A DNA stretch of 40,195 nt, taken from positions 1 to 40,195 of the forward strand of contig JAFNAB010000010.1 in NCBI GenBank assembly GCA_017859955.1. Direction: 5' to 3'. Below are positions 1,882-21,872 of the stretch, piece by piece. This DNA is from Holophagaceae bacterium (lineage in GTDB: Bacteria > Acidobacteriota > Holophagae > Holophagales > Holophagaceae). The position numbers and the translations under genes were made by a program. Within the stretch, counting starts at the first letter, position 1. Every line of letters starts with the position of its first letter. Below the pieces are notes generated by a model. It made no database searches. It was not told the origin of the DNA and saw nothing but the letters and a program-made list of their open reading frames with translations.

Positions 1882-3159
1882 CTACATGTTTTTCGGCACT
1901 ATAGACCGCCACTTCGGAAGCCAGGCCATCCAGTTCAGTCCAGGATCTGAGCGGCGTAGATGGAGGTAGAGCCAAAGCCAGCCGCGCTGGATAGGATCGA
2001 TGCGCAGGTGGTCTAAGGATGTACGGCGTCGAGACCTAAGGTGGCGATCACGACATCGCGTACCAGGCCTGAGTGGGGTCATGATCAGGATGTTCATCCG
2101 CGCATTCCTGCGCAGGCGGTCAACCTTCGCTGCAATCAGGGCGAGCTGATCCTCGGTAAAAGCTGCTAGGACAGGGCTTTCCATGGGATGAATGATCCGC
2201 TCTCGGATCTGGTGTACGGCTTCGGTGATCAACCGCCGGAGATCCGCCAGGCCCCGGGCATCCTTACTCCGGTGTCTTTCAATGTCCTGCTGAGGACTCC
2301 TCAGACTCTCTCGGTGGTTGCTCTTCTCACGCAGAGCGCCGATGAAGGGGTAGGGTGGTTCGAAAAGGGGATTTGCGCCTGCCCCAGCGTGCATTTGTTG
2401 GGTCAGGGTGCTCAGTGGTAGTTCGTAGGGATGGTAGGGGGCACCAATCGGGAGCCGATAGCCCTGGTAGACCCAACGCAGTAGCTTGCCCTTCCCGGTA
2501 AGGCTGGAAGGGAAAAGCTTCTTCTCTACATGCCATTCTCCCATCTCCAGGGGAATGATGCGTCCATGGAACGAGGCGGGCAGGGAGGAGAGTACCTCGA
2601 AGCCCATGGTGCTACCCGTAAGTCGAAACAAAATCGCCGCGTCGATTTCCTGGACAATCCAGGCTAAGAGAATCTCGTAGATCCAGACGATGAAGTCGCT
2701 GAAATGTGGCAACGGATCCCTCAAGTAACGCAGAGCATCCTCGGTGCCCTGGTCTAGCCCGTGGGTGATCTCATGGAAGGCGATCCGCCAGGGCTCCTGC
2801 GGCTGGATCTCTCGCCGGTCGAGCTGGTGGTATAGCGTGTCCGGTGTCCTCTGGGACAGGAAATAGGCCACGCCTTCTACTATGCGACGCTCGGCCAATA
2901 GTGGCCAGCAGCGCAGGAGCGCATCCCGCATCCAGCGTGGCTCCTCCTGCATGAGGATGGCCAAGTGGGAGAGCTGCCCATAGCTGCACGCACCCCGGAG
3001 GAACAACAGGTCCTCTTCACAAGACGGACCGCACCGAAGAAAGGCCCAGGCCAGCGCCAACTGGAACACTGGAGGGATTGACTCCCAGTTGTCCCAGGAA
3101 CCGCTCCATCCAGGAGCGGCCCACTTCTTCTTGTGCTTGCGCGAATCCGATCCGGCCAT
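1882..3159 (-). CDS. Hypothetical protein, 425 aa, with a HExxH-like motif
   Basis: I do not recognise the family. The protein is rich in Trp, Arg and Leu and has no signal peptide or clear membrane segment. An N-terminal half rich in helix-forming residues contains AFHEITHGLDQ at about residue 128, which fits the HExxH signature of zincins. With no other family context this may be chance. The C-terminal 80 residues are strongly basic (clusters such as RCRDRHLRSRRR), which could mean nucleic-acid binding. The start at 3159 has only a weak AGGTG Shine-Dalgarno. The gene lies 76 bases downstream of the YgjP-like peptidase gene on the same strand and is probably accessory cargo. Codon use in the last third is less GC-biased, so a hidden frameshift is possible. 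Confidence 0.55.
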   Translation of the reverse strand: MAGSDSRKHKKKWAAPGWSGSWDNWESIPPVFQLALAWAFLRCGPSCEEDLLFLRGACSYGQLSHLAILMQEEPRWMRDALLRCWPLLAERRIVEGVAYFLSQRTPDTLYHQLDRREIQPQEPWRIAFHEITHGLDQGTEDALRYLRDPLPHFSDFIVWIYEILLAWIVQEIDAAILFRLTGSTMGFEVLSSLPASFHGRIIPLEMGEWHVEKKLFPSSLTGKGKLLRWVYQGYRLPIGAPYHPYELPLSTLTQQMHAGAGANPLFEPPYPFIGALREKSNHRESLRSPQQDIERHRSKDARGLADLRRLITEAVHQIRERIIHPMESPVLAAFTEDQLALIAAKVDRLRRNARMNILIMTPLRPGTRCRDRHLRSRRRTSLDHLRIDPIQRGWLWLYLHLRRSDPGLNWMAWLPKWRSIVPKNM

Positions 3160-3235: not shown

Positions 3236-3952
3236 CTACTCCCTCCATCCCTCCGCCCTAAGCGGAAGCTCATTGAGTTCTGCCCGTGCCTCTCTCCAGG
3301 TTGGGAAATGCTCTGCGAGTAAAGCCAGGAATCGCTCGCTGTGGGTGGGTTCGATCAGGTGGATCATCTCGTGGACGATGACGTATTCCAGAAGATCCTT
3401 GGGCTTCTTTACCAGTTCCGTGTTCAGGCGGATGTGCTGGGCTTTGGGATTGCAGCTTCCCCACTTGGTTTTCATCCGCTGCAGAAAATAGGCAGCCACG
3501 GACACTCCAAGGCGCTTCTCCCACTTCCGGATGATGGGGGGAACCACCTCATGCAGCAGGCCCTTGTGCCATTCGTGCATCACCACGGCCCTTTTTGCTT
3601 CACAGCTGCCAGGTCGGATGCTCAGCGTGATACGGCGGTGATCGAGGGACACTGCAGGCTTGGCTTCTGTCTCCCGCACGTTCAGCAGATAGCGACGTCC
3701 CCAGAGGTAGTGGGTCTCACGGGTGACAAACCGGCGCTTGGTCTCTCGCGCTTGGTTATGGAATTTCTCCTGCTGGGCTCTGATCCAGCCCAGCCTGGAA
3801 ACCGCGTAGGCCCGTGCGACCTCCAGGCGGGTGGCTGCAGGCGCCACGAGGGTGACGTGGCCGTGGGGCGGATGAACCGAAAGATGGACATGCTTGACGT
3901 CCTTTCGGGTCACCGCAATGGTAATCTCGCCAATCTGGATCGCTTCGGTCAT
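3236..3952 (-). CDS. YgjP/SprT-like zinc metallopeptidase (DUF45/M48-type)
   Basis: This is a 238-aa protein with the hallmarks of the YgjP-like family. It has KWGSC at 163-167, the zinc-binding HEMIH at 194-198 and a further His at about 204 in HSERF as likely third ligand. An upstream TTG one codon earlier is possible, but the ATG at 3952 overlaps the hsdR stop as TGATG, which indicates translational coupling. Members of this family are often found beside type I restriction genes, a position known from comparative genomics but without a settled function there. Coupling to hsdR suggests a role in processing or controlling the restriction subunit, which is inference. The catalytic motif is intact. 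Confidence 0.88.
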   Translation of the reverse strand: MTEAIQIGEITIAVTRKDVKHVHLSVHPPHGHVTLVAPAATRLEVARAYAVSRLGWIRAQQEKFHNQARETKRRFVTRETHYLWGRRYLLNVRETEAKPAVSLDHRRITLSIRPGSCEAKRAVVMHEWHKGLLHEVVPPIIRKWEKRLGVSVAAYFLQRMKTKWGSCNPKAQHIRLNTELVKKPKDLLEYVIVHEMIHLIEPTHSERFLALLAEHFPTWREARAELNELPLRAEGWRE

Positions 3953-6900
3953 CAATACCCCGGCTGGTGTTTGATGATGTCGAACATCGCCTTTGTCGCT
4001 TCCCGATCCCGGGCAAGAATCGGATAAAGAGCGTTCAAGACCTGGGCTTCCCGCGCCTCATCGCCCTTCCATCCGGCAGGCGCATGCTCTCGCATGGCAA
4101 GGTCGATCTTGATGGCAAGCGCTGCCTTGTCCTCATCCTGTTCTGGACACTGAAACGTGTCCCCCGGCAGGTCGGCCAAGTTGTTGTAGAGCACGATGGC
4201 TTCGTGCGCTCCATGCAGAGAAGCCGGAAGATTGTTGTAGGGCTGTTTATCCGCCAGCAGTCGGGCCAGCTCTTCGGCCTTTCGGAGGAACTCCTCGTAT
4301 TTCTCTGAATCGTCCCGGCTTTGCTGGATCAGATCATCCAGCAACTTCGACATCTCTTTGTAGAACTTCGGGTCCGTGAGCTGCTCGCGAATGATGGTCT
4401 TCCGGACGTTGTTGATGATCCCTTCCGCGATGGCATTCTTGGTCAGCTTGCCCTTCTGGTTCAGCTTTCGCGCGATGGCATCGTGAATACCGGTCTCGAT
4501 GATCAGTTCTGTAAGGGATAGCGCCCCCAGGTCGCCCAGATTGTCGGAAGGGTCCGCCTGGATGTAGGTGTTGATGAGATGGCGCATGTCCGCCTCAAAG
4601 GGCTTGATGTCCAGCTCTTCGCCCGAATGCTTCTTGATGGCATTCCGGAACTCACAGTGGGCCTCCAGATCCTTCTGAATCGTTCCAGCCTCGGCCGTCG
4701 AGTACCCAGCCTCCTCCAGGTTCTGGGCGAGGTCTGCAAAGGTGCGAGCAAAGGAGGCCACGGCCTTGTAATAGGAAACGCGCAACGGCTCGGTTTCGCT
4801 CAGGGCATTCGGGTCGCTGGCGAGGCCGCAGAAGCAGTGGAGGTACTGCTCGACCTCTCGTGGCTGGGCCACAGGTTCGCAAAGATAGCGAAGGGCTTCC
4901 CGGGCAGCATCGAGCTGCTTCTTGCCCTCTTTCAGCCAGTCCTTGAGCTCGATATTGTTGGTGCCCCCATTGCCCTCGTCGATGTCCAACTCGTCTGAGT
5001 TGTAGACCGCGATGGCCTGCTGCACATCCCCGAACAGCTCCTTGTAGTCCACGATGTGGCCAAAGTCCTTGTCCTCGCCATCCAGACGATTGGTGCGGCA
5101 GATGGCCTGGAACAGATCGTGGTCATGCAGGCTGTTATCCAGGTAGATGTAGGTGCAGCTCGGTGCATCGAAACCCGTCAGCAGCTTGCTCACCACGATC
5201 AGCAGTTTGAGATTGGCAGGTTCTTCGATGAAACGCTGTTTGGTCTGGTCTTCGTACTGCTTGGTGCTTTGTCCCTTTTTCAGAACATGTTTGGTGTAGG
5301 TATCGAACTTGTAGCGCTCATCGCTGTTGGTCGGTTCCTTGGAGATGGCGCTGGGGTTCGGCTCGAAGGATGTAATCAGGCCGCAGTAGGGGCCGAATCC
5401 CGTGTTCTGAAAAATCCGGAAATAGTGGCAGGCATCGTAGATAGAAGCCGCCACCAGAATGGCGGTGCCCCGGTCGTTACTGAGCCGGGGTTTCAGGCTG
5501 AAGTCCTCGATGATGTCCGCGACGATGCGCTGCTTGCGCTCGCCCGCGCTCATCAACTCCTCCATGGTGGCCCATCGCTTCCGAAGGACGGCCTTCTGAA
5601 AGTTGTTCAGCCCCTTGGTTTTCTTTTCGAACCACTCGTCGATTTTGTTGGGCGAGGTCAGCCGCTGGGGCACATCCCGGGCCTCGTATTTCAGATCCAG
5701 CACCACCTTGTCCGCCACCGCCTGGTGGAACTTGTAGGTGTGGATGTAGGTGCCAAACACATCCCGTGTCCTCGTCCTGTCCTTGCGGAGCAGGGGCGTG
5801 CCCGTGAAGCCGATGAAGAGGGCGCTCTCCAGCCAGCGCTTCATCTGCTTGTTCATGTCGCCACCTTGGGTGCGGTGGCACTCGTCCACAAACACGTAGA
5901 ATCGCCCGTGGATTGGCGGCGGCTCGCCCTTGAGATCCGAAGGGTCGAACTTGTGGACCAAGGCGCACAGCAGGCGTGGGGTGGGTGAACCGAGTTTCTG
6001 CACGAACTGCGCCCGGGTAGTGATACGGGGCGAAGGTGAGTCCGCGCCGATCACCCCGGCGTTCTTCATCACCCCCTCGATCTGCTTGTCGAGCTCATCG
6101 CGGTCTGTGACGACCAGGATGCGTGCCTCGGGATCGAATTCAAGCAGCCACTTGGCCAGCAGCACCATTAGGATGCTCTTGCCGCTGCCCTGGGTGTGCC
6201 AGATAACGCCGCCCTCGCGTCGCTGGATGCGTTCCTGCGCGGCCTTCACCCCGAAAAACTGGTGCTGCCTTGGCACCTTTTTCTGGCCCGCGTCGAAGAT
6301 GATGAAGTTGCGGAGGAGATCCAGCAGACGCCCCTTGGCGCACATCTGGGCCAACGGAAGGTCCAACAGCTCACCTGGAGCAGGAGAAACCCCGGAAGCC
6401 TCCGTGCTCTTCCACTCCACGAAGAACTTCTCTGGGGTCCCGGTGGTGCCAAAGCGCAGGCCCTGGGAATCACTGCCCGCTAGCACGAGCTGCACGGTGC
6501 CGAAGAAGCCCTTGTTGAAGATTTCTTCCTGGTTGGTAATGAGCTGGCGGATGCCATCCACCACGTCCACCGAACTGCGCTTCAGCTCCACCACCACAAC
6601 CGCAAGGCCATTCAGGTAGAGCACCAGATCGGGGCGCCGTTCAAAACCACCTTTGAGGGTCACTTCCTCAGCCAGGGCAAAGTCGTTCTTCTCGGGGTGT
6701 TCCCAATCGATCAGGTGCACTGTCTCGAAGGCCTGCCCAGCAGTCACCTGCACTGGCACGCCGTAGCGCAGAAGCTGGTAGGTTCGCAGGTTGGCCTGGT
6801 AGAGGGTGATGCCGGTGGCATCGGCGGCGGTCTCCAGTTTTTGCAGGGCTGCCGAGATATGCATCTCCGAATACCCCCGGGCCTCTAGGTTTGCTCGCAG

Positions 6901-7032
6901 GAATTCCGATTCGATGGGCCGATTGTTCTCTCGCTTGTGCCAATCGCCCAGGTAGCGGTAGCCCAGAGTGTCGCGGAACAGGACAACAACACGGTTCTGG
7001 GTGACGCGCTCGGGGCGAATGACTGGGCTCAT
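3952..7032 (-). CDS. hsdR: Type I restriction enzyme, R subunit
   Basis: This 1026-aa protein is the motor and nuclease subunit of a type I restriction-modification complex. It cleaves DNA after ATP-driven translocation when the HsdS-defined site is unmodified. The N-terminal PD-(D/E)xK nuclease is visible as RRPDLVLYL near 132-140 and VVVVELK ending at 151. The superfamily 2 helicase motor shows Walker A TQGSGKS at about 280-286, the DECH box at 383-386 and FTGTP at 409-413. A helical C-terminal region for HsdM contact completes the normal length. The ATG at 7032 has an AGGAAC-type Shine-Dalgarno. The gene is separated from hsdM/hsdS by five kilobases of other defence genes, which is unusual but keeps the same strand. 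No inactivating change is seen. Confidence 0.96.
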
Positions 7033-7124: not shown

Positions 7125-7697
7125 CTACTTACGCTTCAGCTCTTTGGGAAGAAACGCATCTATCTCATCATCCGAGAAGGTCATATCTTCCAGCTCCTTC
7201 AACGCCTTTTGAGCTTCGACATAGGCCTTGTGATTTGTATTAGGCGCACCGGTGTAAACAGTATGCAGATCGTCAACAAGCTGATCTCTTTGGGAGCGTA
7301 CTGCATCGAGAGACAGCACTTCCATGCGGAGGTCAGTCAAGAGGGAGAGATATTTCTCTCGGATGATCCACAGGTCAGCCCCAGCTTGGCGATGCTTCTG
7401 GGCAATCTCACCCAGATCGTAGTCCTTGGTATAGGAGTTAAGGACTAGCAAAATCGTAGATAGTAAAACGGCGAAATATGCCCCGAGCTTCTTGTATGCA
7501 GCCAGTGCTCCAAAATCAAATAGTGCCGCTATCAATCCGCCCGTAACGACAGCGGAGATAAGAATTTGGTAAATTTTGATTCGGTTGTGGCGCTTGAGCA
7601 GTATGTCTGCACATTTTTCGTGCGTCTTATGGGAGTAAACAACTCGCCCATAACACTCACGCAGTTGTCCTTCTAGGATTACTCCGTTATCAGTCAT
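7125..7697 (-). CDS. SLATT-domain two-TM effector of CBASS
   Basis: This is a 190-aa protein with two hydrophobic helices at about residues 43-60 and 71-87, joined by a short loop. They are flanked by an N-terminal helix with basic residues (LLKRHNRIKIY) and a long C-terminal cytoplasmic helical part. The pattern fits SLATT effectors, which are predicted to form membrane pores when bound by a cyclic nucleotide and so kill infected cells. The start is placed at the ATG at 7697 because GGAAG lies five bases upstream and the ATG overlaps the CD-NTase stop within ATGACTGA. A longer reading from 7757 lies inside the CD-NTase gene. The gene directly follows the CD-NTase and has the same AT-rich composition, so the two form one module. 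Confidence 0.85.
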   Translation of the reverse strand: MTDNGVILEGQLRECYGRVVYSHKTHEKCADILLKRHNRIKIYQILISAVVTGGLIAALFDFGALAAYKKLGAYFAVLLSTILLVLNSYTKDYDLGEIAQKHRQAGADLWIIREKYLSLLTDLRMEVLSLDAVRSQRDQLVDDLHTVYTGAPNTNHKAYVEAQKALKELEDMTFSDDEIDAFLPKELKRK

Positions 7698-9000
7698 AAT
7701 CACTTCCATCTGTGACGATTGGGACATAGATCCTATCTTTAGCCACAACAGTATCATTTTCGATGAGATAACACTCGACGACGTGGTCTCCTCGGAAATT
7801 GGTTGTTTCTTCCTTCACACATCTCCCACTGTCGAGCACAATTTGACCACGGATGCAATTGCGGCGCTGAGCCTCTTCGCCTCTATTTAGAACTTTCCAG
7901 TAGATCCGAGAGGAGCCCAACACTTGAGGTAACTCGGACACCCAGAACTTTAATTTTTTATCCGACCTGAGTGGGATCCGCTTTGCAAGCATGTCGCAGA
8001 GAAAGTATTTTCGGAAACCACGCTGCAATACTTCGCAGTCGATTTTGAGTTGATAACGTATGTCGATAGGGTATTTATCTTCGATCAACTCTTCAGTGTC
8101 AGTCCACGTCTTCACGGCGCTGGCTTCAAACTGTTTTGCCTGTGCAGCCGGGAAGGGTCGCCCATAAATTGCCTTCCATTTATCATTAACATTTTTCTGC
8201 CCATCGGCCTTAATGGCTTCAATACATAGGTCGTAAGCTCTCTTCGCTCGCTGTTGAAATTTTTTCTTTACTCTTACTCGCTGTCGACTTCCTGGAGCGG
8301 CATATTCACTTTGTTCTGGAAGCCCAGAGAGGTATCGAAAGAAATCCCGACTCAATTCGTCATAGTATAAAAAGCTTTTTTCATCATAACATGATGTTGA
8401 CTCTAAAAAGTTATAGCACAGTGTATCTATCAGCAGACCACCCATTCCGACGCCATGTTTGTTTTTCCAGGCGCGAACCATTTTGCACAATCGTCGCAAA
8501 TTACAATTTTTACGTTCATCCATAGTGGCTACAGCATTCATTTCTTCTCTTGGCTTGGTGATTTTCCAGATTCCTCCACTCTTGGTGTCTGGATATCTGT
8601 AGCTTTTATCTTCTTGTTCGAAAACGGGCTGAACTTCAATGTGGAAATTCGTGTAGGTAACCGTAACGACAAGGCGATCGACTCGAACACACGTAGATGG
8701 ATATCGGTCGCGAATCGCATCTCTTGTGTCCTGCAAAAGCTTCAACTGTCCTCCAATCTTGTTGTACTCGTCCCATTTTGTCTTAGGCATGATGTAGAGC
8801 ATGTCTAAGTCCGATATATCTTTAATTCCAGTCTTTCTGCCAAATGATCCAACTTGAAGTGTATTGGCCGTTTTAGATTCTGTATCTCGGAATTGTTTGT
8901 TGAGGGCCGCCGTCAGTTCGCCATAGCGTGCACTGATGATTTCAGCATTGCTTATCGCTAGGTTGGCGAGAAATACGGAAAACATTTCAGAAACGCTCAT
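7690..9000 (-). CDS. CD-NTase (SMODS) with AGS-C sensor domain, CBASS cyclase
   Basis: This 436-aa protein is predicted to make a cyclic di- or trinucleotide alarm signal on phage infection. The nucleotidyltransferase core shows GSFGR at 51-55, the metal-binding pair D64/D66 in SDLDML, and a third acid at about E122 in HIEVQPVFE. A helical SMODS region follows (LCKMVRAWKN). The last 90 residues resemble the AGS-C sensor domain found fused to such enzymes: RRNCIRGQIVLD, then VECYLIENDTVVAKDRIYVP. The ATG at 9000 overlaps the TGA of an hsdS remnant, and the GGGAGG upstream comes from the LTGR codons of that remnant. With the SLATT gene this is a minimal two-gene CBASS with no Cap2/Cap3 or HORMA/TRIP13 genes. 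The base composition is markedly AT-richer than the neighbours. The product nucleotide cannot be read from sequence. Confidence 0.9.
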   Translation of the reverse strand: MSVSEMFSVFLANLAISNAEIISARYGELTAALNKQFRDTESKTANTLQVGSFGRKTGIKDISDLDMLYIMPKTKWDEYNKIGGQLKLLQDTRDAIRDRYPSTCVRVDRLVVTVTYTNFHIEVQPVFEQEDKSYRYPDTKSGGIWKITKPREEMNAVATMDERKNCNLRRLCKMVRAWKNKHGVGMGGLLIDTLCYNFLESTSCYDEKSFLYYDELSRDFFRYLSGLPEQSEYAAPGSRQRVRVKKKFQQRAKRAYDLCIEAIKADGQKNVNDKWKAIYGRPFPAAQAKQFEASAVKTWTDTEELIEDKYPIDIRYQLKIDCEVLQRGFRKYFLCDMLAKRIPLRSDKKLKFWVSELPQVLGSSRIYWKVLNRGEEAQRRNCIRGQIVLDSGRCVKEETTNFRGDHVVECYLIENDTVVAKDRIYVPIVTDGSDYD

Positions 9001-9066: not shown

Positions 9067-11670
9067 TTAGGGAGCATTTGTTCGGACATTGGCACAACCT
9101 CGTCTCTGGAATTCCTCTCGCCAATCCCTTAATCCCTCCAGGTCCGCACGCAATTCAGGTTCTTCGGGCAAAAATGCGGGGGCCTCCCATGATTGGCTGT
9201 GCTCAAAACAAGAGTATCTCGTCATCAGGCCATCAATGAAACCACAGTCCTCTTGAGTGATTCGAGGCAGTTTCCCAAGACGGTTGTCCGTGGTCACGCT
9301 CCGACGATGCCGTTTGACCACCTCATTCAGGAGATCATCCTCAACAGTTCGTTCCAGGAGCTTGCGGAAGTCGGAACAGATGCCCTGTGCATGGAGTCGG
9401 TAGGCATCACCACCGCCAACCTCTGCAGCTTTCATGGCCTCCGTCAGTCGCGTGAGAAGAATATTGTTGGCCTTCTTCGTGTTGGCATTCCACGCAGCCT
9501 CATCAACAGGGTGACCCGAGGCTCCTCCAAAGGATTCGATGTAGCGCTTCTCTAGGTGATCCTTGCGCCAATCATCTCCATTCTTTTTCGCCGCGTCTTC
9601 CATCGCGCCATACAGCGAAAGTCGATGCGTGAAGACCAGAACCTGTCGGTCTTTCGCCAATTCTGCAAGTCGTTGGGCCACCTGCCATTCGAAGTCGTGA
9701 TCGAGGGATGAGATGGGGTCATCAAACACAAAGGGCGCGGCATGGGGCTTCTCGACGACATCCGCAAGAAACGCCGCGAGTGAAACAATGCGGCGCTCAC
9801 CATCGCTCAGTACAGAATCTGGTACGGCCTGAGCTGTAGTAGCGCCCTTGAGACGTAGCTGATGCAACGCTTTTCCATGCGAGGTGCGAGTCATTACCAA
9901 TTCCACGCGGATATGCTCTGCGCCAAGGGTTTTCAGCTCAGCGTTGAAACGCGTCACATAGGCAGTGGTGATGACCTTCTCTGCGACTTCACCAGCTTTC
10001 ACCGAGATTGGCCGCGAGTTCGCGGAACGAGCCAATCCATCGATTGCCTTGATCTGTTTTAGTTGCTCAATTTCTTTATGGATGGCCTCGGATTGCTGGG
10101 AGATCCACTTCTGAGCCTCAAGCTCGGTCTTTTGACTTCGGGCGGAAACGCGATCAAAGGTCTTGGCATCCTCATCGTGCTGCTGTGCCTCGGCATCGAG
10201 CGCTTTGGATCGAGCCTTTAGAAACTCCAAGATCTCCGAAGGCACCTCGACGGGCGTGGCCATTTCTTCGGGTTCCCCAGCCTTCAAGCATTCGCTAGCC
10301 AATCTCACACAAACCCAGAAGGCATTGAGAGATTGAAGCTGTGCATCCTGCACAACGCCAGCCGCTTCACAGCGGGTGCGGATCTCATCTTCTGACAAGG
10401 CAACGGGAAGGCTTTTCAGCAACTCGGAGTATGCGTTCTCGGCAGCCTTCGCATCGGCTTCCACGGTGCCCTGAACGAAAGTTTCAAAATCACGCAGGCG
10501 TTGCTGGGCCTCGGGGGAAAGTTCTTGATGGCAGAGCAGGCACCGAGACCCTGGAGCGGTCACCGGAAAATCCTGTTTTGGGTAGGGCGTTTGGGAGTAC
10601 TGCCGGGCAGCCCCCCATAGGGCGTTCCATGTATCTGTGCCGATGCCCTCCAGCTTGGAAGACTGGGCACAAGCCTTGGCAGCTTCCGTGGCCACCTTGC
10701 GCTTTGCTTGAGCGTCTGTTCGTGCATTACGAAGAACCTGGATCTGCCCCTGACCCAAGGCGGTTCCAATACTTTCAAGTTCCTTCGTCAACTGATCCAC
10801 CTGGACCTTGGTGGCCCGTTTCTGCTTGGAGGCGAGGGCGGGGTCTGCAATCTTCAGCCGCTCGACCAATTGATCGAGCGATGTTTGATCGGCGTCCACC
10901 CATTGGATCAGGCGCCGAAGCGCAGTCTCGGAGATCTCTGCTTTCAGTCCCTGGTAGGCCGTTCCGGCCTTGGTCCCAACGAAATTGGATGGCAGGGCCG
11001 GAAGTGAACTCACCAGAAGCGCCTGCTCAGCCTGGAGCTTGGTTTTGACGCGGTCGCAAGCAGCAGCCAATCCCTCGAACAAAGCCACTACAGGGGGCGT
11101 GTAGGAGGCTTCTGACTCCTTATTCAGATAGACCGTCGCCACATCAGTATCGAAAAAGTCCACCGCTTGGAGATCGGCAAGTGCGGCGCCAGTCGGCGAC
11201 CATTCAACGTTTTGTTCAGCTCCACCAGTGCGATAGCCAATCGTGCATTTCCGTTCTATAGGTGGTGCCTGGAACGCATGGGGCTTCAGGTCTTTGGCCA
11301 AGGGTTTTCCGCAGGCCTTTTTCAGGATCCGCGTGTAGCTGGATTTCCCGGCGCCGTTGGGGCCATAGACCACCGCGAGGTTACCCTTGCCGAAGTCCAA
11401 AGGCCTGCGAGGGGCAAGACTCTCGATCCCCTTGATGTCCCCCAGGCTCAGCAATCGAAGCTCCGCCGTGGCTCGAAAAGAACCACCCAAGGCCTCAAAG
11501 GAGCGCGTTGAGGTGACCCTCCGCCCGTCCTCGGATTTGAGACGAGCAACCAGATGATCAATGTCCGCCTCGAGTAGCGAGCCCGATGTATAGAGTCGTT
11601 CCGCCGCTTCCTGAAGCCAGTCCTGCTGCTGATGCAACCAACCAATGATTTCCTGTGAGATGTCACGCAT
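9067..11670 (-). CDS. RloC/PrrC-like AAA ATPase with zinc-hook and putative anticodon nuclease domain
   Basis: This is an SMC-like ATPase of the AAA_13 group, 867 aa from the ATG at 11670. A TTG six codons upstream is possible but lacks a good ribosome site. Motifs, numbered from the ATG: Walker A YGPNGAGKSS around 102-111, a CLLC zinc-hook motif at 377-380 within the middle helical region, ABC signature LSDGE around 621-625, and Walker B DDPISSLDH around 650-658. The C-terminal domain carries R769-x3-E773 in FRKLLERTVE and H824 in FEHSQ. This fits the Arg-Glu-His triad of PrrC/RloC anticodon nucleases. Those proteins cut tRNA when DNA damage or phage attack disturbs restriction. Its place inside a type I locus fits a guard role. 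The hook and length favour RloC over PrrC. Nuclease activity is inference from the triad. Confidence 0.85.
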   Translation of the reverse strand: MRDISQEIIGWLHQQQDWLQEAAERLYTSGSLLEADIDHLVARLKSEDGRRVTSTRSFEALGGSFRATAELRLLSLGDIKGIESLAPRRPLDFGKGNLAVVYGPNGAGKSSYTRILKKACGKPLAKDLKPHAFQAPPIERKCTIGYRTGGAEQNVEWSPTGAALADLQAVDFFDTDVATVYLNKESEASYTPPVVALFEGLAAACDRVKTKLQAEQALLVSSLPALPSNFVGTKAGTAYQGLKAEISETALRRLIQWVDADQTSLDQLVERLKIADPALASKQKRATKVQVDQLTKELESIGTALGQGQIQVLRNARTDAQAKRKVATEAAKACAQSSKLEGIGTDTWNALWGAARQYSQTPYPKQDFPVTAPGSRCLLCHQELSPEAQQRLRDFETFVQGTVEADAKAAENAYSELLKSLPVALSEDEIRTRCEAAGVVQDAQLQSLNAFWVCVRLASECLKAGEPEEMATPVEVPSEILEFLKARSKALDAEAQQHDEDAKTFDRVSARSQKTELEAQKWISQQSEAIHKEIEQLKQIKAIDGLARSANSRPISVKAGEVAEKVITTAYVTRFNAELKTLGAEHIRVELVMTRTSHGKALHQLRLKGATTAQAVPDSVLSDGERRIVSLAAFLADVVEKPHAAPFVFDDPISSLDHDFEWQVAQRLAELAKDRQVLVFTHRLSLYGAMEDAAKKNGDDWRKDHLEKRYIESFGGASGHPVDEAAWNANTKKANNILLTRLTEAMKAAEVGGGDAYRLHAQGICSDFRKLLERTVEDDLLNEVVKRHRRSVTTDNRLGKLPRITQEDCGFIDGLMTRYSCFEHSQSWEAPAFLPEEPELRADLEGLRDWREEFQRRGCANVRTNAP

Positions 11671-11724
11671 CGCGAACCCCGAGTTCAAATCAATCGTGTG
11701 CTCTTCTGATGTGCAGTTCCTGAA

Positions 11725-12273
11725 TCATTGCTTTGCGGAATACGGTTGAGGTGTAAGTGTTCCAGGCAAATAGAGTGGATGGACAGGCGTGCCATCCGCG
11801 GCGAGTCGGAGGTAGCAGAGTCGTGGGTGGTTGCCGAGAAGGGCTACGACGTCCCTGCCACGTTGGCGAAGCGACTTCGGGGGTTGCCCAAAGGCCAGAA
11901 TCACCATTTGGGCCTCTGCCGCCATGTCTAGAATCATGCGGTCATTTTCTGGCCCGACGGGATCAGTCACTTCCAACAATCGGCTTTTATCCGTGGTCCG
12001 ATATGCGTGGACATTGCCGACGAGCTGTCCACCGTAACCCCACGAGCGAGCGAACTTACTGGTCTTTCGCAGTGTGGGGTCACTGTAATCGAGGCAGGCA
12101 ACACTGGGGTTCATCAGCAGCCACAAAAGCAGCGGCTGGGATGTGTCCCATATTTCCCGCAACTGGTAGCGGTATTGCTGGCATTCCGAAAATACAGCGC
12201 TGACCTGGGAATTGGCTGGCCAGGCAGGACGGACCTTTCCTCCGGGATCATGCTTCAGAAGGGCGGGGCTCAT
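11725..12273 (-). CDS. DUF1643 family protein
   Basis: This 182-aa protein matches DUF1643 by its conserved blocks: LLWLLMNPSVA at about 48-58, DPTLRKT, FARSWGYG, VGNVHAYRTTD and DPVGPENDR. A further stretch, VILAFGQPP, resembles the uracil-DNA-glycosylase-like Rossmann core suggested for this family, though that relation is tentative. The ATG overlaps the hsdS stop as ATGA and has GGGG upstream, so it is translationally coupled to hsdS. DUF1643 genes are found repeatedly next to restriction and phage genes, but their biochemical role is not known to me. It may help restriction or recognise modified bases, which is a guess. Confidence 0.88.
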   Translation of the reverse strand: MSPALLKHDPGGKVRPAWPANSQVSAVFSECQQYRYQLREIWDTSQPLLLWLLMNPSVACLDYSDPTLRKTSKFARSWGYGGQLVGNVHAYRTTDKSRLLEVTDPVGPENDRMILDMAAEAQMVILAFGQPPKSLRQRGRDVVALLGNHPRLCYLRLAADGTPVHPLYLPGTLTPQPYSAKQ

Positions 12274-13487
12274 GCCGTCACCCCTTGTGGGTCGACCAGT
12301 CGCGTCCGGCCGGTGAGGAGTTCCTGCATCATGCCCAGCTTGAGGGCGAGGGTCTTGTCACGGCGTGTTTCAATGGAAAGCAGTTCTGCATCCATGTCAG
12401 ATAGAACTGCGGAAATGGCGATTTGTTCTTCAATGTGAGGAAATGGAATTGCGAGATTGCGGACATCACCGCTGTTGATGGCTGGATAATTTGAACCTGT
12501 GAGCAGCGCATCGATTTGTTTGGTTACAACAGCACCGAACATCTGGCTGAAGACATACGCGGGATAGCTGACGCCATCCCGACACCGGATAACGCAAAAG
12601 CCTGTTGAGCAGACCCAGTTGTCATTGTTGCCATTGAAAAGGAGGTGTGATTGCAGGTTCGGGCGCACTGTGGAGACCAAGACATCGTTTGGTTTCAGTT
12701 TGCGCCGGGCTCGCGATGGAGCTACAGCAAAAACTTGTTCTGAAAAACCTCGGAGAATGCCCTGATCAACATCTTCGAGTGCTATGTAATTGAAGACGAA
12801 ATCGAGACGTGTGTCAGATCCAAGGCTCTCGGGATCGATATCAACGCAATCTCCCAACCGCTTCACCTGCCACTCCTCTCTAAACCCCGGGAGGCGTGTT
12901 TGGCCGGTGAGGAGCTGCTGCATGGCGGCCTGCTTGAGGTCGTGCTTCTTCGCGATGAGCCGGTCCAGACCTTGGAGTAGCGCATCCACATCGCTCAATG
13001 CCGCAGCAATGGCGCGTTGTTCGGGAAGGGGGGGCAGTGCACATGGCAAGGTCTGAAGAGTTGACTTAGTCAGCTTGTAGCGTCCTGCCCCTTGGCGAGT
13101 TAGGTAGCTTGAGATATCCCGATTTGCGAAGAACCAGTAGAACCATGGCGTATAGTTCTTCGTCCCTTTTACAATATGTGCATGGTTATTAACGTTAAAC
13201 CTTCCAGTAACCAGCAAAGTCATAGATTGATCACGCCACTTTAGGAAATGGTCACCATCTTCGCCTATTAGCGCGTGTTCGCCTTCAACGCGATACTCGT
13301 TGATCCAGCCCTGCACGCCTGTCGGTCCATAGTATGGGTATTGTCCTGTCATGCGTTCGCGAACCATTTGGCTTATCGGAAGTCGAAGTTGATTTCGAAT
13401 TTCGAAAGCATCACCAACTGCCTCGACGCCCCACTCGTTTGGTAATACGCCCACTTCGCTCTGCTTGTAGCCCGGCCTCACTTCCAT
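12270..13487 (-). CDS. hsdS: Type I restriction enzyme, S (specificity) subunit
   Basis: This 405-aa protein recognises the bipartite DNA target for the HsdM/HsdR complex. It has the standard two target-recognition domains, at about residues 1-150 and 205-345. Each is followed by a conserved helical repeat: PEQRAIAAALSDVDALLQ to QLLTGQTRLPGF, and EEQIAISAVLSDMDAEL to QELLTGRTRLV. These repeats are the known recombination sites for swapping specificity. The start overlaps the last ten bases of hsdM, so the two subunits are coupled. The recognition domains are less GC-rich than the repeats and than hsdM, as usual for exchanged modules. The target sequence cannot be predicted here. A second copy of the gene's tail is found at 8997-9053. 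Confidence 0.96.
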   Translation of the reverse strand: MEVRPGYKQSEVGVLPNEWGVEAVGDAFEIRNQLRLPISQMVRERMTGQYPYYGPTGVQGWINEYRVEGEHALIGEDGDHFLKWRDQSMTLLVTGRFNVNNHAHIVKGTKNYTPWFYWFFANRDISSYLTRQGAGRYKLTKSTLQTLPCALPPLPEQRAIAAALSDVDALLQGLDRLIAKKHDLKQAAMQQLLTGQTRLPGFREEWQVKRLGDCVDIDPESLGSDTRLDFVFNYIALEDVDQGILRGFSEQVFAVAPSRARRKLKPNDVLVSTVRPNLQSHLLFNGNNDNWVCSTGFCVIRCRDGVSYPAYVFSQMFGAVVTKQIDALLTGSNYPAINSGDVRNLAIPFPHIEEQIAISAVLSDMDAELLSIETRRDKTLALKLGMMQELLTGRTRLVDPQGVTA

Positions 13488-16055: not shown

Positions 16056-16748
16056 TCAGGCCCACCCCTCCGCCGCCCGGAAGCTGTGCCAGCTCTCCCG
16101 CCCCAGGACCATGTGATCCGCCAGGGGCACCCCCAGGCTCTCGCCAGCGGAGCGGAGGCGGGTGGTCAGGAGGCCATCCTCCCGGGAGGGGGCCGGATCC
16201 CCGGACGGGTGGTTGTGCCAAGCCAGAGCGGTTGTGGCGCCGAAACGGAGCGCTTCACGGAAGAACTCCCGGGGGCTCACCAGGCAGGCGGTGGCGGTGC
16301 CGTGGGCCAGAACCCGATCTGCCAGGAGCTCGCCCTTGGCGTTGAGGGCGATCATCCCGAAGCGCTCCTCGGTCCAACCCTGGACCTTGGGGAGAAGATA
16401 GGTCCCAGCGGCCCGGGGGGAGGTGATGCGGGGGCGCTCGAAGCTCCGGGTGGAGCGGCGATGAACCTCCTGCAGGACCGCGAAGCGGGCCATCTCGGCC
16501 TTGCTGAGGCCCAGACACTGGAGCTCCGCAGGCCCCATGGCGACCAGGCGTCCCAGGTTCTCGACCTGGTGGAGGATCTCCTCGGCGCGGCCGGGGCGGA
16601 CGCGGTTGAGCATGGCTTCGATGATCTGGGCGTCGGAGAGGGATTCGGGACCGTAGAGGGCCACGCTTTCGGCGACGGGGGAGGGGCGGTGCTGGGATCC
16701 GCTGGAAGGAAGCGGCTGGTCGAAGAGGGGGAGGATGGAAGGGGTCAT
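16056..16748 (-). CDS. RadC-like JAMM/MPN domain protein
   Basis: This 230-aa RadC family protein has an N-terminal helix-hairpin-like segment (about 35-95, ESLSDAQIIEAML and LQCLGLSKAEMARF). The JAMM metalloprotease fold follows, with HNHPSGDPAPSRED at about 180-193, which gives the expected HxH, Ser and Asp ligands. A GGAGA Shine-Dalgarno precedes the ATG at 16748. RadC was once thought to be a repair protein, but its role is unsettled. Copies on plasmids, phages and integrative elements are common, and this one sits between transfer and restriction genes. It is therefore more likely element cargo than the housekeeping copy. The proline-rich first 25 residues are not part of the family core. 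Confidence 0.9.
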   Translation of the reverse strand: MTPSILPLFDQPLPSSGSQHRPSPVAESVALYGPESLSDAQIIEAMLNRVRPGRAEEILHQVENLGRLVAMGPAELQCLGLSKAEMARFAVLQEVHRRSTRSFERPRITSPRAAGTYLLPKVQGWTEERFGMIALNAKGELLADRVLAHGTATACLVSPREFFREALRFGATTALAWHNHPSGDPAPSREDGLLTTRLRSAGESLGVPLADHMVLGRESWHSFRAAEGWA

Positions 16749-16961
16749 GGCTTATCTCCGTGCCCACCGGGTCGGGGCACGAAAACGCCGGGGTCCCCCG
16801 CTCCCCAGGCCTGGACCGGGAACGAACCGGGCAACGCAGTGAACCGGGCAGAGAGCGGGTAGGGCCGCCGTGGCGCGGGATCAGGACAGCCGGCCGTGCC
16901 TGAACCGGAAAAGGGCACGGAAAGCCGTGGCTCCCCATGCCCCCCTGCCGATGGTGCCGCT
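16749..16961. other. GC-rich intergenic region with two related hairpins
   Basis: About 213 bases contain two inverted repeats built on GTGCC/GGCAC: one at 16760-16780 and a longer one at 16894-16920 (CCGTGCC/GGCACGG). A direct repeat GAACCGGGCA lies at 16824 and 16841. The hairpins follow the 173-aa gene and could stop the mobilization operon, but no T-run follows them on the minus strand. Confidence 0.4.
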
Positions 16962-17483
16962 TCAGTCCGATACCCCCAACCGCTCCCGGAGCTGGGCACG
17001 CTGGACCTCGTCCACATCCAAAGAACCCAGGATCTCCTCCTCGACCAGAAAGAAATACTCCAGCACGCCCCGGACTTCGCTGTAGTCCGCATCCTCCGGG
17101 CCGTCCAGGAGCGCCGCCTGAACCAGGGGCCAATGGTCCTCGCCGTCGGTGGAGGGCAGGACTGCCCGGAGCATGTCCGCTGGGGAGAGCCCCGCCTCCA
17201 TCAGGGCACGCCCCACATCCCCCCAGGGGGCCTTCAGCGCGACCAGGTGACTGAGGATCTCCTCGTAGGGATAGCCCTCGGCCTTCATCAAGCGGGCTTC
17301 CGTGCCCCAGACCTCCCGCTGGCGCAGGAGCTCCTGGACCTCCTCCTCCGAAAGCCCCGCCGCCCGCAGCTCCCGGATAACATCCAGCCAGAGGGAACCC
17401 CGGAGCACCCCCGCTGGGGCCTCCTGGTCTTCCGCATCCTCAATGATGACGGCGCCCACATAGAGCTTGTTGGAACGGATCAT
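16962..17483 (-). CDS. Hypothetical acidic protein at the end of the mobilization operon
   Basis: This is a 173-aa soluble protein, not recognised. It is acidic and mostly helical. It has repeated short helices with AGLSEEEVQELL, EGYPYEEILSHL and AGLSPADMLRAVLP, which look like degenerate 30-40 residue helical repeats. It has no signal peptide, membrane segment or cysteine pair. Its ATG overlaps the coupling-protein stop as ATGA and is preceded by GAGGAGG, so it is translated with the transfer genes. It could be an accessory factor for the coupling protein or for control of transfer, which is inferred from position only. Confidence 0.7.
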   Translation of the reverse strand: MIRSNKLYVGAVIIEDAEDQEAPAGVLRGSLWLDVIRELRAAGLSEEEVQELLRQREVWGTEARLMKAEGYPYEEILSHLVALKAPWGDVGRALMEAGLSPADMLRAVLPSTDGEDHWPLVQAALLDGPEDADYSEVRGVLEYFFLVEEEILGSLDVDEVQRAQLRERLGVSD

Positions 17484-19348
17484 AGCCAGTCCTCCTCAAG
17501 GGTTGGTTCGGGGGTGGTGGACGTTGGGGAGGAGACGGTCTCGACAGGTGCGGCCCCGGGCACCTCCAGGCACCATTCCGGGAGCTCCACGGCCTTCAGG
17601 GCCTCCCGCTCGGCGGCGCGCACCTCGGCTTCGGAACTGGCCCAGGGGTCTCCCTCTGGAAGCATCGGCCCCAGGGGCGTGCGGGGAATCTCGATGGGCA
17701 CCGGGAACCAGTAGGTGAAGCCGTGCAGGCGCCCCAGGGCTACGCGGCGCTCGGACCAGCTCCCCCAGGCATCCAGAGGCATGAGATCGGCCTCCTTCTC
17801 GGTGGCCTTGGCGTTGCGATTGGCGGGTGGCACCCGGCGGGTGAACCTGCCGATGGCCTGGGTCAGGCGTTGGCGGAGCTCGTCCTCCAGGTTCCGCGCC
17901 AACCAGATCCGGGTCCCAAAGCCCTCCATGACGGCCTTCCAATCCTGGGGATAGACATCCTGGAGGAGGCCGAGGTTCTGGATGCCCGCCACGATGGAGA
18001 CCCCCTTGGAGCGCAGAAGCACCAGGGCGCGCTGGATGTTGGGGATGCGCCCGCAATCCCCGAACTCATCCAGCAGGAGGAGGATCTTGGAGGCCCCTTC
18101 GGGCCGATTCCTCAAGCGGCCCAGCAGCATGGCCCAGAAGACATGCACGGGTCCCTTCAGGGCGTCACTGTCCTCGCAGTTCATGACGTAGCCGCCCCGG
18201 GCGATGAAGTCGTCCAGGGTGAGGGTGCTTGGGCCTTCGGTGATGCTGCGCACCCGGGCGGTCTCCCAGCGGCTCAGGGTCACCACCAGATCCTGGAGCA
18301 CCGGCACCTGGCTCTTGGGTTCCTTCATGGTGTCCATGTAGATGGCGTCCAGGGTCTCCAGGAAGGGTTCCATCCGAGACTCGCGCAGGGTGCGGGCGAT
18401 CTGCTGGATGCTCTCCCAGCGCTTCATTCTCAGGACTGCCCCAAAGAGCACCCGGGCCATGTCCCGAACCCAGCCGTTCGGGTCCTTGGGGTTCTTGGGG
18501 AAGATGTAGTCCACCAGGAGGTCGAAGTCTTCGGTGGTCCGGATCTCCTGGAGGGGGTTCCAGACCCCACTGCGGGTGAGGTGCCCCCGCACATCCAGCC
18601 CAAAGACCGGCCGATCCGGGAACTCGTCCCGGAAGGGGAGCTCGGCCTTGGAGTCCTGATAGACCCAGGGGACGAGGGCGGTGTGCATGATGGGAGCATA
18701 GAGGCTGGCGGTCTTGCCGGAGCCCTGGGGGCCGACCACAAAGATGTGCCTGGAAAGGATGTCCCAGCGGAAAGAGAGCAGGGTGAGGTTGCCGCCCCGG
18801 TGCTGACCCGGGAGGACCAGGCGGCAGGCTCGCCGGGAGTCGCTCCGGTGGACCAGGAGCTCCGCAATGGGGCGCGGGTCCTGGTGCACCTGGCCGCCCT
18901 CGACGACCTTCTGGCTCCATTCCTCGGCGACATCCCGGAACCGGGCATCGGCGCGGCCGTCCCCGCTCCGGACATAGCTAGGGGTGCTGTTCCAGGTGGC
19001 CAAGAGGATGAGGGCGAGCACCAGGACCACTCCATGGATGCCCAGGAACACGGGCCCTTGCCGGAAGGCCCAGGTGAGGAAGTCCCGGTCGGAAACGCCC
19101 CAGAGCAATCCCAGACCCAGAACCAACAATCCCAGACTGAGGGGGAGGGTCTTGGGGGAGCGGCGGTGCAGGAGCAGCCAGCGGGTCAGGCGGTGCAGGC
19201 GCCGCTGAAGGAGATCGCAGGGATCAGCCTGCTCAATCCATAGCCAGCGGAAGGCCCACCAGGCGAGGCCAAGGCCGCCCAGACAGGCCAGCAGGAGGGC
19301 GCCGCCGCCATCCCAGATGCGGAGCAGGGTCAGAATGGTTTGTTTCAT
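17480..19348 (-). CDS. Type IV coupling protein (VirD4/TraD/TraG-like)
   Basis: This 622-aa ATPase links a relaxase-DNA complex to a type IV secretion channel. N-terminal hydrophobic segments at about 15-35, 65-85 and 95-115 anchor it in the inner membrane. The motor domain has Walker A GPQGSGKTAS near residue 213 and Walker B ILLLLDEFGD near 395. The LDVRGHL and WNPL segments are typical of VirD4 proteins. The C-terminus is proline- and glutamate-rich. A longer reading from 19450 is rejected because the ATG at 19348 has GGAGG seven bases upstream and overlaps the relaxase stop as ATGA. No other secretion genes are in the window, so the element may depend on a helper or carry them further left. 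Confidence 0.9.
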   Translation of the reverse strand: MKQTILTLLRIWDGGGALLLACLGGLGLAWWAFRWLWIEQADPCDLLQRRLHRLTRWLLLHRRSPKTLPLSLGLLVLGLGLLWGVSDRDFLTWAFRQGPVFLGIHGVVLVLALILLATWNSTPSYVRSGDGRADARFRDVAEEWSQKVVEGGQVHQDPRPIAELLVHRSDSRRACRLVLPGQHRGGNLTLLSFRWDILSRHIFVVGPQGSGKTASLYAPIMHTALVPWVYQDSKAELPFRDEFPDRPVFGLDVRGHLTRSGVWNPLQEIRTTEDFDLLVDYIFPKNPKDPNGWVRDMARVLFGAVLRMKRWESIQQIARTLRESRMEPFLETLDAIYMDTMKEPKSQVPVLQDLVVTLSRWETARVRSITEGPSTLTLDDFIARGGYVMNCEDSDALKGPVHVFWAMLLGRLRNRPEGASKILLLLDEFGDCGRIPNIQRALVLLRSKGVSIVAGIQNLGLLQDVYPQDWKAVMEGFGTRIWLARNLEDELRQRLTQAIGRFTRRVPPANRNAKATEKEADLMPLDAWGSWSERRVALGRLHGFTYWFPVPIEIPRTPLGPMLPEGDPWASSEAEVRAAEREALKAVELPEWCLEVPGAAPVETVSSPTSTTPEPTLEEDWL

Positions 19349-20898
19349 CGATCGACCTCCAGGCCGCGCGTGGCGGCATTGATAGCGTTGTGGGCAACGG
19401 TGCTGGCCAGCTCCAGCGCCTTGGCGGCGACCCCGGCCACGGGCAACCAACCGGCCACCTGGAAGGCCTTCTGCAGGGGCTCCGGAAGGGTGCTCTTGAG
19501 CCCCGCTGCCCGGGTGACGCTCCCGCCCAGTTCCAGGGCGCCGTTGGCCAGGGTCTTGCCCAGAGCCAGGGGGGAGAGGGTCACGGTGTCTTTGGCGGCG
19601 CCCAGGGTGGTCTTGGCGGTGGTGCCGAGGGCCTGCTGGGCCATGCGCAGCTCCCGGGGGAGCAGCTCGCTGACCCCGGCCCCAGCGGTGCGGGCGGCCC
19701 CCTTGGCCAGTTCGCCGCCCGCCCGGAGGGCGCCCTGGCCCAGCTCCTTTCCGGCCAGACCCAGGTCCTGGCCGACTTCCTTGCCCAGACCGGCCAGCGA
19801 AGCGCCGCCGGTGGGCAGAGCCATCACCAGGGCCGCCCCGGTTTTGACGGAGGCCTGGGCCACATGGAGGCTGCTGCGTAGGGCCGCCTTGGCGGTCTCC
19901 TGGGAGGCCCGCAGGGCGGTCTGGGCTCCAGCATCGGCCAGGGCAAGGGCAGCCCGCGCCACCATGCGCACCGGGGCGGGCAGACCCATGGCCCGCATGG
20001 CCTGGTCGGCGGCGCTTCGACCAAGTCGGCTGGCGCCCCGGGTGAGGCTCTGGGCCATGCGTCCGCCCTGGTCGACGCCCCTGCCGAGGCGAGCCTTCAC
20101 TTGCCCCAAGTGCCGATCGGCTTCCCGCTTTTCGAGGCGGCGGAGCGAGCCGGTGCGGCGATGCTCAGCCTGCTCCAGTTCAGCCTGGTGGCGCGGGCTC
20201 CCCAGGGCGCCCCTGGCTTCGTAGCGGGCGTGGATCGCCTTGAACTCCGTGGCGTAGCGGCGCTCGATGAGGTCCCGGGCCTTCACCTCAAAGGGACGGG
20301 CCGCTGCGAGCTTCTGGCCGGGGACAGCGCGCTTCATGGCCTCTCGCCGCTGGGTTTCGTTTTCCCGCTGCTGGCGGATGAGCTCCTGGAGGTGGGCCTT
20401 CTCCTTCTGGAAGCGCCGGTGGGCCTGCCAGTCCTGGATACGGGGCTCGTCGCCGTGGAGCTCCCGGTCCCAGGTCTTCTGCATGTGCCCGTGCTTGCCA
20501 AGGGTGCGCTCGGGCATGGGGCCGCTGACGGCGATGTGGTAGTGAAAGCGGCCGTCCTGCTCGTGGATGGCCAGGACATAGGGGCGCCCCTGGGCATGGG
20601 CCTGCGCGATCCGGGTGCCGGTGTCCGCCATGGCCTGCTGGGGGTGCTCGGGGTTGCGGGCCTTGATGGCCGCGCACTCCTGGGCGCTGGGGGCCACGAT
20701 GACCTCGTGGTATTCCCCGCGAGGCCCGCCTAAGGTCTGGATGGCCTCCTGGTTTTCGAGCTCCTTCCCCTCGGCGCCCAGCAGGCGAGCGGCGTCCCGG
20801 CCGTGCTCGCTGCCCAGGTAGTGGGTGCGGCGGTTCCAGGTGGGCGCCTGCTGGCGTCCCCGGAAGCCGGGGGTGAACCCTGCCTTGATGATGGCCAT
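19345..20898 (-). CDS. Relaxase / mobilization protein
   Basis: This is a 517-aa relaxase-like protein. The N-terminal 160 residues carry YHEVIVAP at about 62-69 and a histidine cluster IHEQDGRFHYHIAVSG around 108-123. That matches the HxH metal site of Mob-type relaxases, which nick oriT and stay bound to the 5' end. The catalytic tyrosine is probably in the first 30 residues (THYLGSEHG), but this is not certain. A basic helical region follows (about 150-250). The C-terminal 250 residues are Ala/Gly/Leu-rich amphipathic repeats of uncertain use. The ATG at 20898 overlaps the stop of the preceding gene as TGATG. An upstream extension to 21513 is out of frame with known domains and is rejected. 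Confidence 0.85.
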   Translation of the reverse strand: MAIIKAGFTPGFRGRQQAPTWNRRTHYLGSEHGRDAARLLGAEGKELENQEAIQTLGGPRGEYHEVIVAPSAQECAAIKARNPEHPQQAMADTGTRIAQAHAQGRPYVLAIHEQDGRFHYHIAVSGPMPERTLGKHGHMQKTWDRELHGDEPRIQDWQAHRRFQKEKAHLQELIRQQRENETQRREAMKRAVPGQKLAAARPFEVKARDLIERRYATEFKAIHARYEARGALGSPRHQAELEQAEHRRTGSLRRLEKREADRHLGQVKARLGRGVDQGGRMAQSLTRGASRLGRSAADQAMRAMGLPAPVRMVARAALALADAGAQTALRASQETAKAALRSSLHVAQASVKTGAALVMALPTGGASLAGLGKEVGQDLGLAGKELGQGALRAGGELAKGAARTAGAGVSELLPRELRMAQQALGTTAKTTLGAAKDTVTLSPLALGKTLANGALELGGSVTRAAGLKSTLPEPLQKAFQVAGWLPVAGVAAKALELASTVAHNAINAATRGLEVDR

Positions 20899-21362
20899 CA
20901 GGACTCTCCCCGGAGGGCACGCATCTTGGCCTGGGCGGAGGAGGTAATCTCGGCCGCCCTCGGGCTGGACTCCACGACCCCCAGCAGGTGGGCATAGCTG
21001 AGCTGGCAGAGCCCCAGTACGCCCGCCAGGGTCTGGAGGATCTGGGCTTCTCGCTCCGCCTGCCCCTCCTCGACCTTTCGAAGGATGGCCACCAGGGCCT
21101 CGATGCGGGTGGCGTGCCTGGCCTGCTGCTCGACCACCCCGAGGAGGGTGCGAGCCAGGGATTCCAGGCGAGGGCCGAAGGTTTCCTCGGCCATCCGCTC
21201 CTTGGCGTCGTCCAGGAGGTTCCGCAGGGCCTGGGTATGGTTCACCCCCTGTCGCTTGGCCAGCTCCTCCAGCACCCCCCAGGATTCCGCCCCCACCCGG
21301 GCATGCACCACGTTCTTGGCACGCCCTGAACCCAGTGGGGACCGCCACTTCCGCTCTTCCAT
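20898..21362 (-). CDS. MobC-like relaxosome accessory protein
   Basis: This 154-aa protein begins the mobilization operon. Residues 15-55 (RAKNVVHARVGAESWGVLEE and NHTQALRNLLDDA) look like a ribbon-helix-helix DNA-binding region. The rest is a long coiled coil (LESLARTLLGVVEQQARHATRIEALVAIL). Proteins of this kind bind oriT and help the relaxase melt the nic site. The ATG at 21362 has AGGAGG six bases upstream. The gene overlaps the relaxase start. The family name rests on position and fold pattern, not on a clear sequence signature. Confidence 0.7.
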   Translation of the reverse strand: MEERKWRSPLGSGRAKNVVHARVGAESWGVLEELAKRQGVNHTQALRNLLDDAKERMAEETFGPRLESLARTLLGVVEQQARHATRIEALVAILRKVEEGQAEREAQILQTLAGVLGLCQLSYAHLLGVVESSPRAAEITSSAQAKMRALRGES

Positions 21363-21872
21363 GTTGCGCCTCCTGTTGCACCCAGGCGCTGGGACCACAT
21401 GAATGCACCACCCCTAAGCCCGCCCAAAGACAGGGCTTTGCCCAGGGGGCGCCACAGTCACGCGCCACAGCGAACTTGCCACCCGAAGGGTTCGATCTTT
21501 CGATCGCCCCCACGCCAACCTTTCAGCCAGGATTAGGCCGTGGGGATTGGGTTGCAAGGGGCTTTTTGTTGGTAAAACAGATGCTTACATTGGCAAATGG
21601 AGACTGCTGAAATTTCTTTTCGGCCTGTCCGAGTGTGGGGGTATTCCGCCTGCCTGAGGGTTCCCCCAGCAGTTCCCTGTGCTGGGTGAAGGTGAGGGAA
21701 TGCCTGTTCCTCAATCCCTTGGGGTGGGTGCCACGGTTCCCGAGGTTCCCTTGTGTGGCAAGGCCACCAGGATGTGCCCCCGTTCTGAAAAAAAATCGGG
21801 AGAATTTTTTGCGTCCGGGATACGGGCGGGATACAGCAAGGCCCCCGGGAAGGGGGCCTGTGTTGCTAAGTC
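21363..21872. other. Non-coding region between mob operon and tRNA-Ser, candidate oriT and element end
   Basis: About 510 bases without a gene. Near the mob operon there are a GGGC/GCCC hairpin at 21433-21443, two direct copies of GCGCCACAG (21449-21457 and 21462-21470) and two copies of TTCGATC (21491 and 21499). Such clusters of short repeats upstream of mobC are typical of an origin of transfer, though no known nic motif was recognised. The region at 21541-21640 is AT-richer and probably holds the mob promoter. Near 21788-21812 is an A/T-rich inverted repeat. The right end of the element should lie at the 3' end of the tRNA. Confidence 0.45.
21840..21858 (-). terminator. Hairpin after tRNA-Ser
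   Basis: GGCCCCC and GGGGGCC form a seven-base-pair GC stem with a five-base loop, 15 bases beyond the tRNA 3' end. The downstream T content on the minus strand is low (TTGCTGTAT), so it may stop transcription imperfectly. Confidence 0.6.

Follow-up and report, generated by a model that had tools for sequence, protein, structure and literature searches.

RloC proteins were defined as Rad50-like ATPases of 658-897 residues that carry a CxxC hook and a C-terminal R-X3-E-X36-52-H motif (Davidov & Kaufmann 2008, PMC2610378). In GkaRloC, residues R692, E696 and H737 are essential by mutagenesis, and mutation of the hook activates the protein; rlo genes have already been reported in hsd loci of Campylobacter, and RloC is sometimes located inside type I restriction-modification (R-M) loci (PMC2610378). 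PrrC has the triad Arg320-Glu324-His356, with an E-H spacing of X31 (PMC2610378). As far as the literature consulted shows, RloC has been characterised experimentally in two proteins, those of G. kaustophilus and A. baylyi. It has been proposed that the gap between hsdS and hsdR in type I operons is a hotspot for defence cargo (PMC12255303).

We analysed an RloC-like gene in a 40,195-nucleotide stretch of DNA from a Holophagaceae bacterium (contig JAFNAB010000010.1, positions 1 to 40,195), hereafter the window. Homologues were collected from plasmids, from the taxonomic family of the host, from genomes and from viral contigs, and conservation was counted over 106 distinct full-length sequences, including the window protein.

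An RloC-like gene within an intact type I R-M operon

The type I R-M operon around rloC is intact. Read along the minus strand, its genes are hsdM, hsdS, DUF1643, rloC, CD-NTase, SLATT_4, hsdR and ygjP. The genes are listed below; the comparisons are with the corresponding operons of Geothrix terrae (L037) and of an Aeromonas veronii plasmid (L218).

13478-15988, minus strand: hsdM, type I methyltransferase, 92% identical in G. terrae
12270-13487, minus strand: hsdS, type I specificity subunit
11725-12273, minus strand: DUF1643 protein, adjoining rloC in G. terrae also
9067-11670, minus strand: RloC-like ABC-ATPase and putative HEPN-type ribonuclease, intact, 867 residues; Pfam AAA_13, PADLOC PDC-S06 model PDLC04893
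8997-9062, minus strand: relic of an hsdS 3' end, ending in MIQELLTGRTHLL and a stop, with an ATGA overlap with the CD-NTase start
7690-9000, minus strand: CBASS CD-NTase (SMODS and AGS_C)
7125-7757, minus strand: SLATT_4 two-TM effector of CBASS
3952-7032, minus strand: hsdR, type I restriction subunit
3236-3955, minus strand: YgjP/SprT-like metallopeptidase, last gene of the operon, at the same position in L037 and L218

Downstream of ygjP and in the same direction lies a gene for a 425-residue protein (1882-3159, minus strand) that has no Pfam, NCBIfam or PADLOC match. Beside the defence operon, at 16056-21960, lie genes for a RadC-like protein and for a coupling protein of the TraG/TrwB type (17480-19450), as well as a tRNA-Ser (21873-21960). 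The RadC-like gene, the coupling protein and the tRNA-Ser together suggest an integrated mobile element; a repeat of the tRNA-Ser 3' end that could mark an att site was not found within the window.

Two cargo modules in the hsdS-hsdR slot

Comparison with related operons suggests how the slot between hsdS and hsdR was filled. In G. terrae the same operon, with HsdM and HsdR 92-94% identical to those of the window, contains DUF1643-rloC and lacks CBASS, and the stop codon of rloC runs into the start of hsdR. The A. veronii plasmid carries hsdM-hsdS-CD-NTase-SLATT-hsdR-SprT without rloC. Thus, the two closest operons compared hold either rloC or CBASS in the slot, never both, whereas the window holds both. 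Between rloC and the CD-NTase gene of the window remain about 60 nucleotides of an hsdS 3' end, with the same ATGA overlap as at the hsdS/CD-NTase junction of the plasmid. The GC content is 0.44-0.47 in the CBASS genes, 0.56 in rloC and 0.59 in hsdR. Relative to G. terrae, synonymous divergence (dS) reaches 0.85-0.87 in DUF1643-rloC, against 0.47-0.53 in hsdM and hsdR; the higher value fits a DUF1643-rloC unit that may move as a cassette. In the simplest history, the rloC and CBASS modules, which are separate in related operons, were combined in the window and are joined there by the hsdS scar. The RptR-RMS-DarTG2-M48 island of EPEC (PMC12255303) resembles this arrangement: hsdS and hsdR enclose a second defence module, and a metallopeptidase gene comes last. 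The cargo there is DarTG2, rather than the DUF1643-rloC and CBASS of the window.

Gene boundaries and sequence motifs

The minus-strand reading frame is open over 9067-11688 and would encode 873 residues from the TTG at 11688 or 867 from the ATG at 11670. The ATG is the start kept in the G. terrae orthologue; the TTG is not kept there. Residue numbers given here count from the TTG, and numbering from the ATG is lower by 6. The orthologue is 83-84% identical, and dN/dS between the two genes is 0.11, which indicates purifying selection and no decay. A first-pass annotation of this DNA had noted an RloC-like protein with intact zinc hook and R-E-H triad at 9067-11670, and what it observed in the sequence is confirmed: the gene is intact, its product is a Rad50-like ABC ATPase, and CLLC, RKLLE and FEHSQ stand where that annotation had placed them. 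The motifs and domains are as follows.

11419-11670, minus strand: N-terminal extension of about 85 residues
11341-11364, minus strand: Walker A, GPNGAGKS; G109, N111, G114 and K115 invariant in 106/106
10531-10542, minus strand: CxxC (CLLC) zinc-hook motif, C383 and C386
9796-9810, minus strand: ABC signature, LSDGE
9700-9726, minus strand: Walker B (FDDP) and D-loop (SSLD)
9625-9633, minus strand: switch histidine, FTH (H688)
9070-9591, minus strand: C-terminal domain (residues 700-873), predicted to be helical and a putative HEPN-type RNase (AlphaFold2, Foldseek)
9352-9366, minus strand: R-X3-E (RKLLE), R775 and E779
9199-9201, minus strand: H830 of FEHSQ

The protein has no CxxC other than CLLC, which is roughly equidistant from Walker A and the ABC signature. 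The Pfam AAA_13 match ends at residue 705, on the N-terminal side of the putative nuclease domain. The N-terminal extension contains two conserved tryptophans, W17 and W24; with the cutoff relaxed to E = 10 it still matched nothing in Pfam.

Conservation of the hook and the putative triad

In one sequence these motifs are weak evidence, because R-x3-E-x36-52-H arises in 41% of shuffles of the C-terminal 174 residues and CxxC in 16.5% of shuffles of the whole protein. We therefore examined the motifs across the homologues. Both hook cysteines, R775 and E779 are invariant in all 106 sequences and H830 is conserved in 105, and it is this conservation that bears out the choice of hook and triad residues made in the first-pass annotation. 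The invariant columns consist of the ABC motifs, the two cysteines, R775, E779 and a few others, and an alignment of the C-terminal domain (88 sequences) leaves G, R, E and H as its sole invariant residues. In the one exception at H830, a homologue from an Acidobacteria MAG (L085, 9659-12547), a threonine is aligned at the triad histidine; this protein retains both hook cysteines as well as the R and E of the triad.

The window protein has R824-x5-H830, which fits the Rx4-6H motif of the HEPN superfamily. Position 824 is K in 58 sequences and R in 37, together 95 of 106, giving a HEPN-like [RK]x5H; the strict arginine of Rx4-6H is thus valid for part of the branch only. A search of viral contigs with the single window protein gave no match, and a search with the homologue alignment recovered 26 loci.

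Relationship to canonical RloC and PrrC

At the level of motifs the window protein has what defines RloC: a Rad50-like ABC ATPase with its motifs, a central CxxC hook (C383/C386), a C-terminal R775-X3-E779-X50-H830 and a length of 867 or 873 residues. With PrrC it shares the ABC ATPase, a C-terminal domain with R-X3-E...H and a gene within an hsd operon, PrrC being linked to EcoprrI. PrrC, however, is half the size (341-416 residues), without a hook or a coiled coil, unlike the 867-residue window protein with its CxxC hook insert, and the PADLOC PrrC model covers only 50 residues of the latter, with 21 bits. The spacing of about 50 residues between E and H had been called longer than that of PrrC, correctly: it is X50 in the window protein and X48-51 in its branch, as against X31-35 in 14 PrrC sequences.

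That spacing had also been offered as a reason to suspect a divergent branch. As a mark of divergence it was ruled out, since X50 lies within the published X36-52 (PMC2610378); the divergent branch itself stands on other grounds. By sequence, the window protein belongs to a branch separate from canonical RloC, because it matches its own PDC-S06 sub-models, carries the N-terminal extension with the two conserved tryptophans and has a C-terminal domain without a profile match to that of canonical RloC. In canonical RloC (Acinetobacter, Bacilli, Gammaproteobacteria and viral contigs) the E-H gap is shorter, mostly X36-43, and the histidine usually follows a serine, whereas in the window branch there is no serine directly before it. 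We infer that the published upper bound of X52 reflects members of the window branch.

All PADLOC matches of the window protein above 200 bits are to PDC-S06, a candidate system without a described function. The match to PDLC04893 (1052.6 bits, E = 0) spans residues 7-863 and positions 1-859 of the 862 of the model; in sequence, nothing sets the window protein apart from the PDC-S06 models that its branch matches (PDLC04888, 04891, 04892 and 04893). PDC-S06 also includes canonical RloC, under other models: the three proteins tested matched 04886, 04887, 04890, 04894, 04896 and 04897. The protein type is already catalogued, and RloC-like is the best reading of it. Among the collected sequences none fits the fingerprint of GkaRloC exactly; one (L158), at 826 residues from its ATG, has the published length of AbaRloC, an agreement that does not prove identity.

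Homology and predicted fold of the C-terminal domain

The first-pass annotation had suggested alignment with RloC as a check, and the outcome was divided: the sequence motifs fit, but the C-terminal domain showed no detectable homology in profile-profile comparison (hhalign) with 37 canonical RloC domains (E ~0.2). Comparison with PrrC also gave no match (E = 0.083), and several domain cuts and hhalign modes likewise detected no homology to either family. The C-terminal domains of RloC and PrrC matched each other marginally (E = 6.7e-4), and the alignment superposed their R-X3-E and SH motifs. The 37 more diverse RloC sequences made this a fairer test than Acinetobacter RloC alone, which was uninformative because the RloC-PrrC comparison failed there too.

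AlphaFold2 gave a confident all-helical model of the C-terminal domain on its own (pLDDT 90.8, pTM 0.83). In it, a first helix is followed by a second carrying R and E, two shorter helices, a loop with H and, at the end, a long helix. The canonical RloC domain, modelled as a control, has the same helix order and triad placement, at low confidence (pLDDT 64.7, from nine sequences). In a Foldseek search of the PDB, HEPN proteins rank first for the window domain (7bxo, 2hsb, 1ylm and 5yep), but their scores fall short of significance (E >= 0.43; TM, normalised by query length, < 0.5); with the control model, HEPN toxins appear at E >= 0.84 among unrelated proteins. A library of viral structures yielded no HEPN-like match. 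The predicted fold may thus be called HEPN-like, though this is not established. A HEPN-like fold had been set as a check on the earlier proposal, which passes it weakly, on the all-helical model and the top-ranking HEPN proteins but not on the scores.

Discussion

Together, these observations appear to favour, if with some reserve, a self-contained RloC-type protein of abortive infection, guarded by R-M and bearing a HEPN-type RNase that most probably cleaves tRNA anticodons. By analogy with the characterised proteins, the product is most likely an R-M-linked HEPN-type ribonuclease and probably a tRNA anticodon nuclease. The nuclease reading draws on the C-terminal invariants G, R, E and H, which keep the order and the R-X3-E spacing essential in GkaRloC. 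We know of no assayed member of the window branch.

Other readings differ in the trigger, the substrate or both. A credible if lesser possibility is a Rad50-like sensor of DNA breaks that is independent of R-M, like A. baylyi RloC, which answers DNA breaks and whose hsd genes are not linked (PMC3874168); the hsdS-hsdR slot would then be a recombination hotspot that provides a promoter. Most of the 102 loci of the branch have no hsd gene detected within the stretch examined, so that R-M control cannot be general in the branch, and the slot also holds CBASS in operons compared here, and DarTG2 and other pairs elsewhere (PMC12255303). Yet at 8 of these loci, from several phyla, hsdM and hsdR stand on either side of rloC and share its strand, and in Geothrix rloC overlaps hsdR; hsdM or hsdR is nearby in at least 18 of the 102, and these linkage counts are lower bounds because contig ends cut loci and the search began from the Hsd sequences of the window itself. 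This alternative is one of trigger and would suit either nuclease target.

As to the target, a HEPN-type RNase in the same architecture could cut another RNA, such as mRNA, rRNA or tRNA outside the anticodon. We think this improbable, although the C-terminal domain does not align by profile with those of RloC or PrrC and other HEPN toxins hit other targets (PMC3710099), given the triad, R-X3-E spacing and helix order shared with the RloC anticodon nucleases. A bolder and doubtful extension is that the hook ATPase is fused to an RNase that has diverged far from the RloC/PrrC nuclease or arisen separately, with its own RNA target; the operon would then form a three-tier defence of restriction, RNA cleavage and CBASS, with one promoter for all three and the R-M enzyme as their common guard. 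Very unlikely, finally, is a DNA-acting ATPase of the SMC/Rad50 kind, with a nuclease partner or in a structural role, and with a regulatory C-terminal domain. Many database matches outside PDC-S06 are indeed SbcC, SMC or ABC ATPases, but no partner of the Mre11/SbcD type was recognised among the operon genes, and the C-terminal invariants agree with the triad of a metal-independent RNase.

For the preferred RloC-type reading, we propose a mechanism in which ATPase control, hook dimerisation, RNase activity, tRNA specificity and triggers are modelled on GkaRloC, AbaRloC (PMC3874168) and PrrC. The protein, presumably co-transcribed with the hsd genes, would be a Rad50-like ABC ATPase, probably a dimer, whose coiled-coil arms are tipped by the Cys-X2-Cys zinc hook and whose ATPase restrains the C-terminal HEPN-type ribonuclease. 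Because the type I R-M operon that surrounds rloC is intact, the putative nuclease would most likely be a second line of defence behind the R-M enzyme, which may keep it silent; the same location gives the idea of a restriction guard a genomic support that the first-pass annotation had not cited. Inhibition of the restriction enzyme by a phage, or DNA ends created by restriction or phage attack, would shift the conformation of the ATPase and free the metal-independent RNase (R775, E779 and H830), which would cut RNA, most probably tRNA anticodon loops, and so stop translation.

The locus offers a clear snapshot of defence modules stacked in the hsdS-hsdR gap, and the protein represents a second PDC-S06 branch that is spread over many phyla and plasmids. 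PrrC is silenced by its linked R-M enzyme, and a member of this branch within a complete hsd operon also allows a direct test of the old question whether the same holds for RloC.
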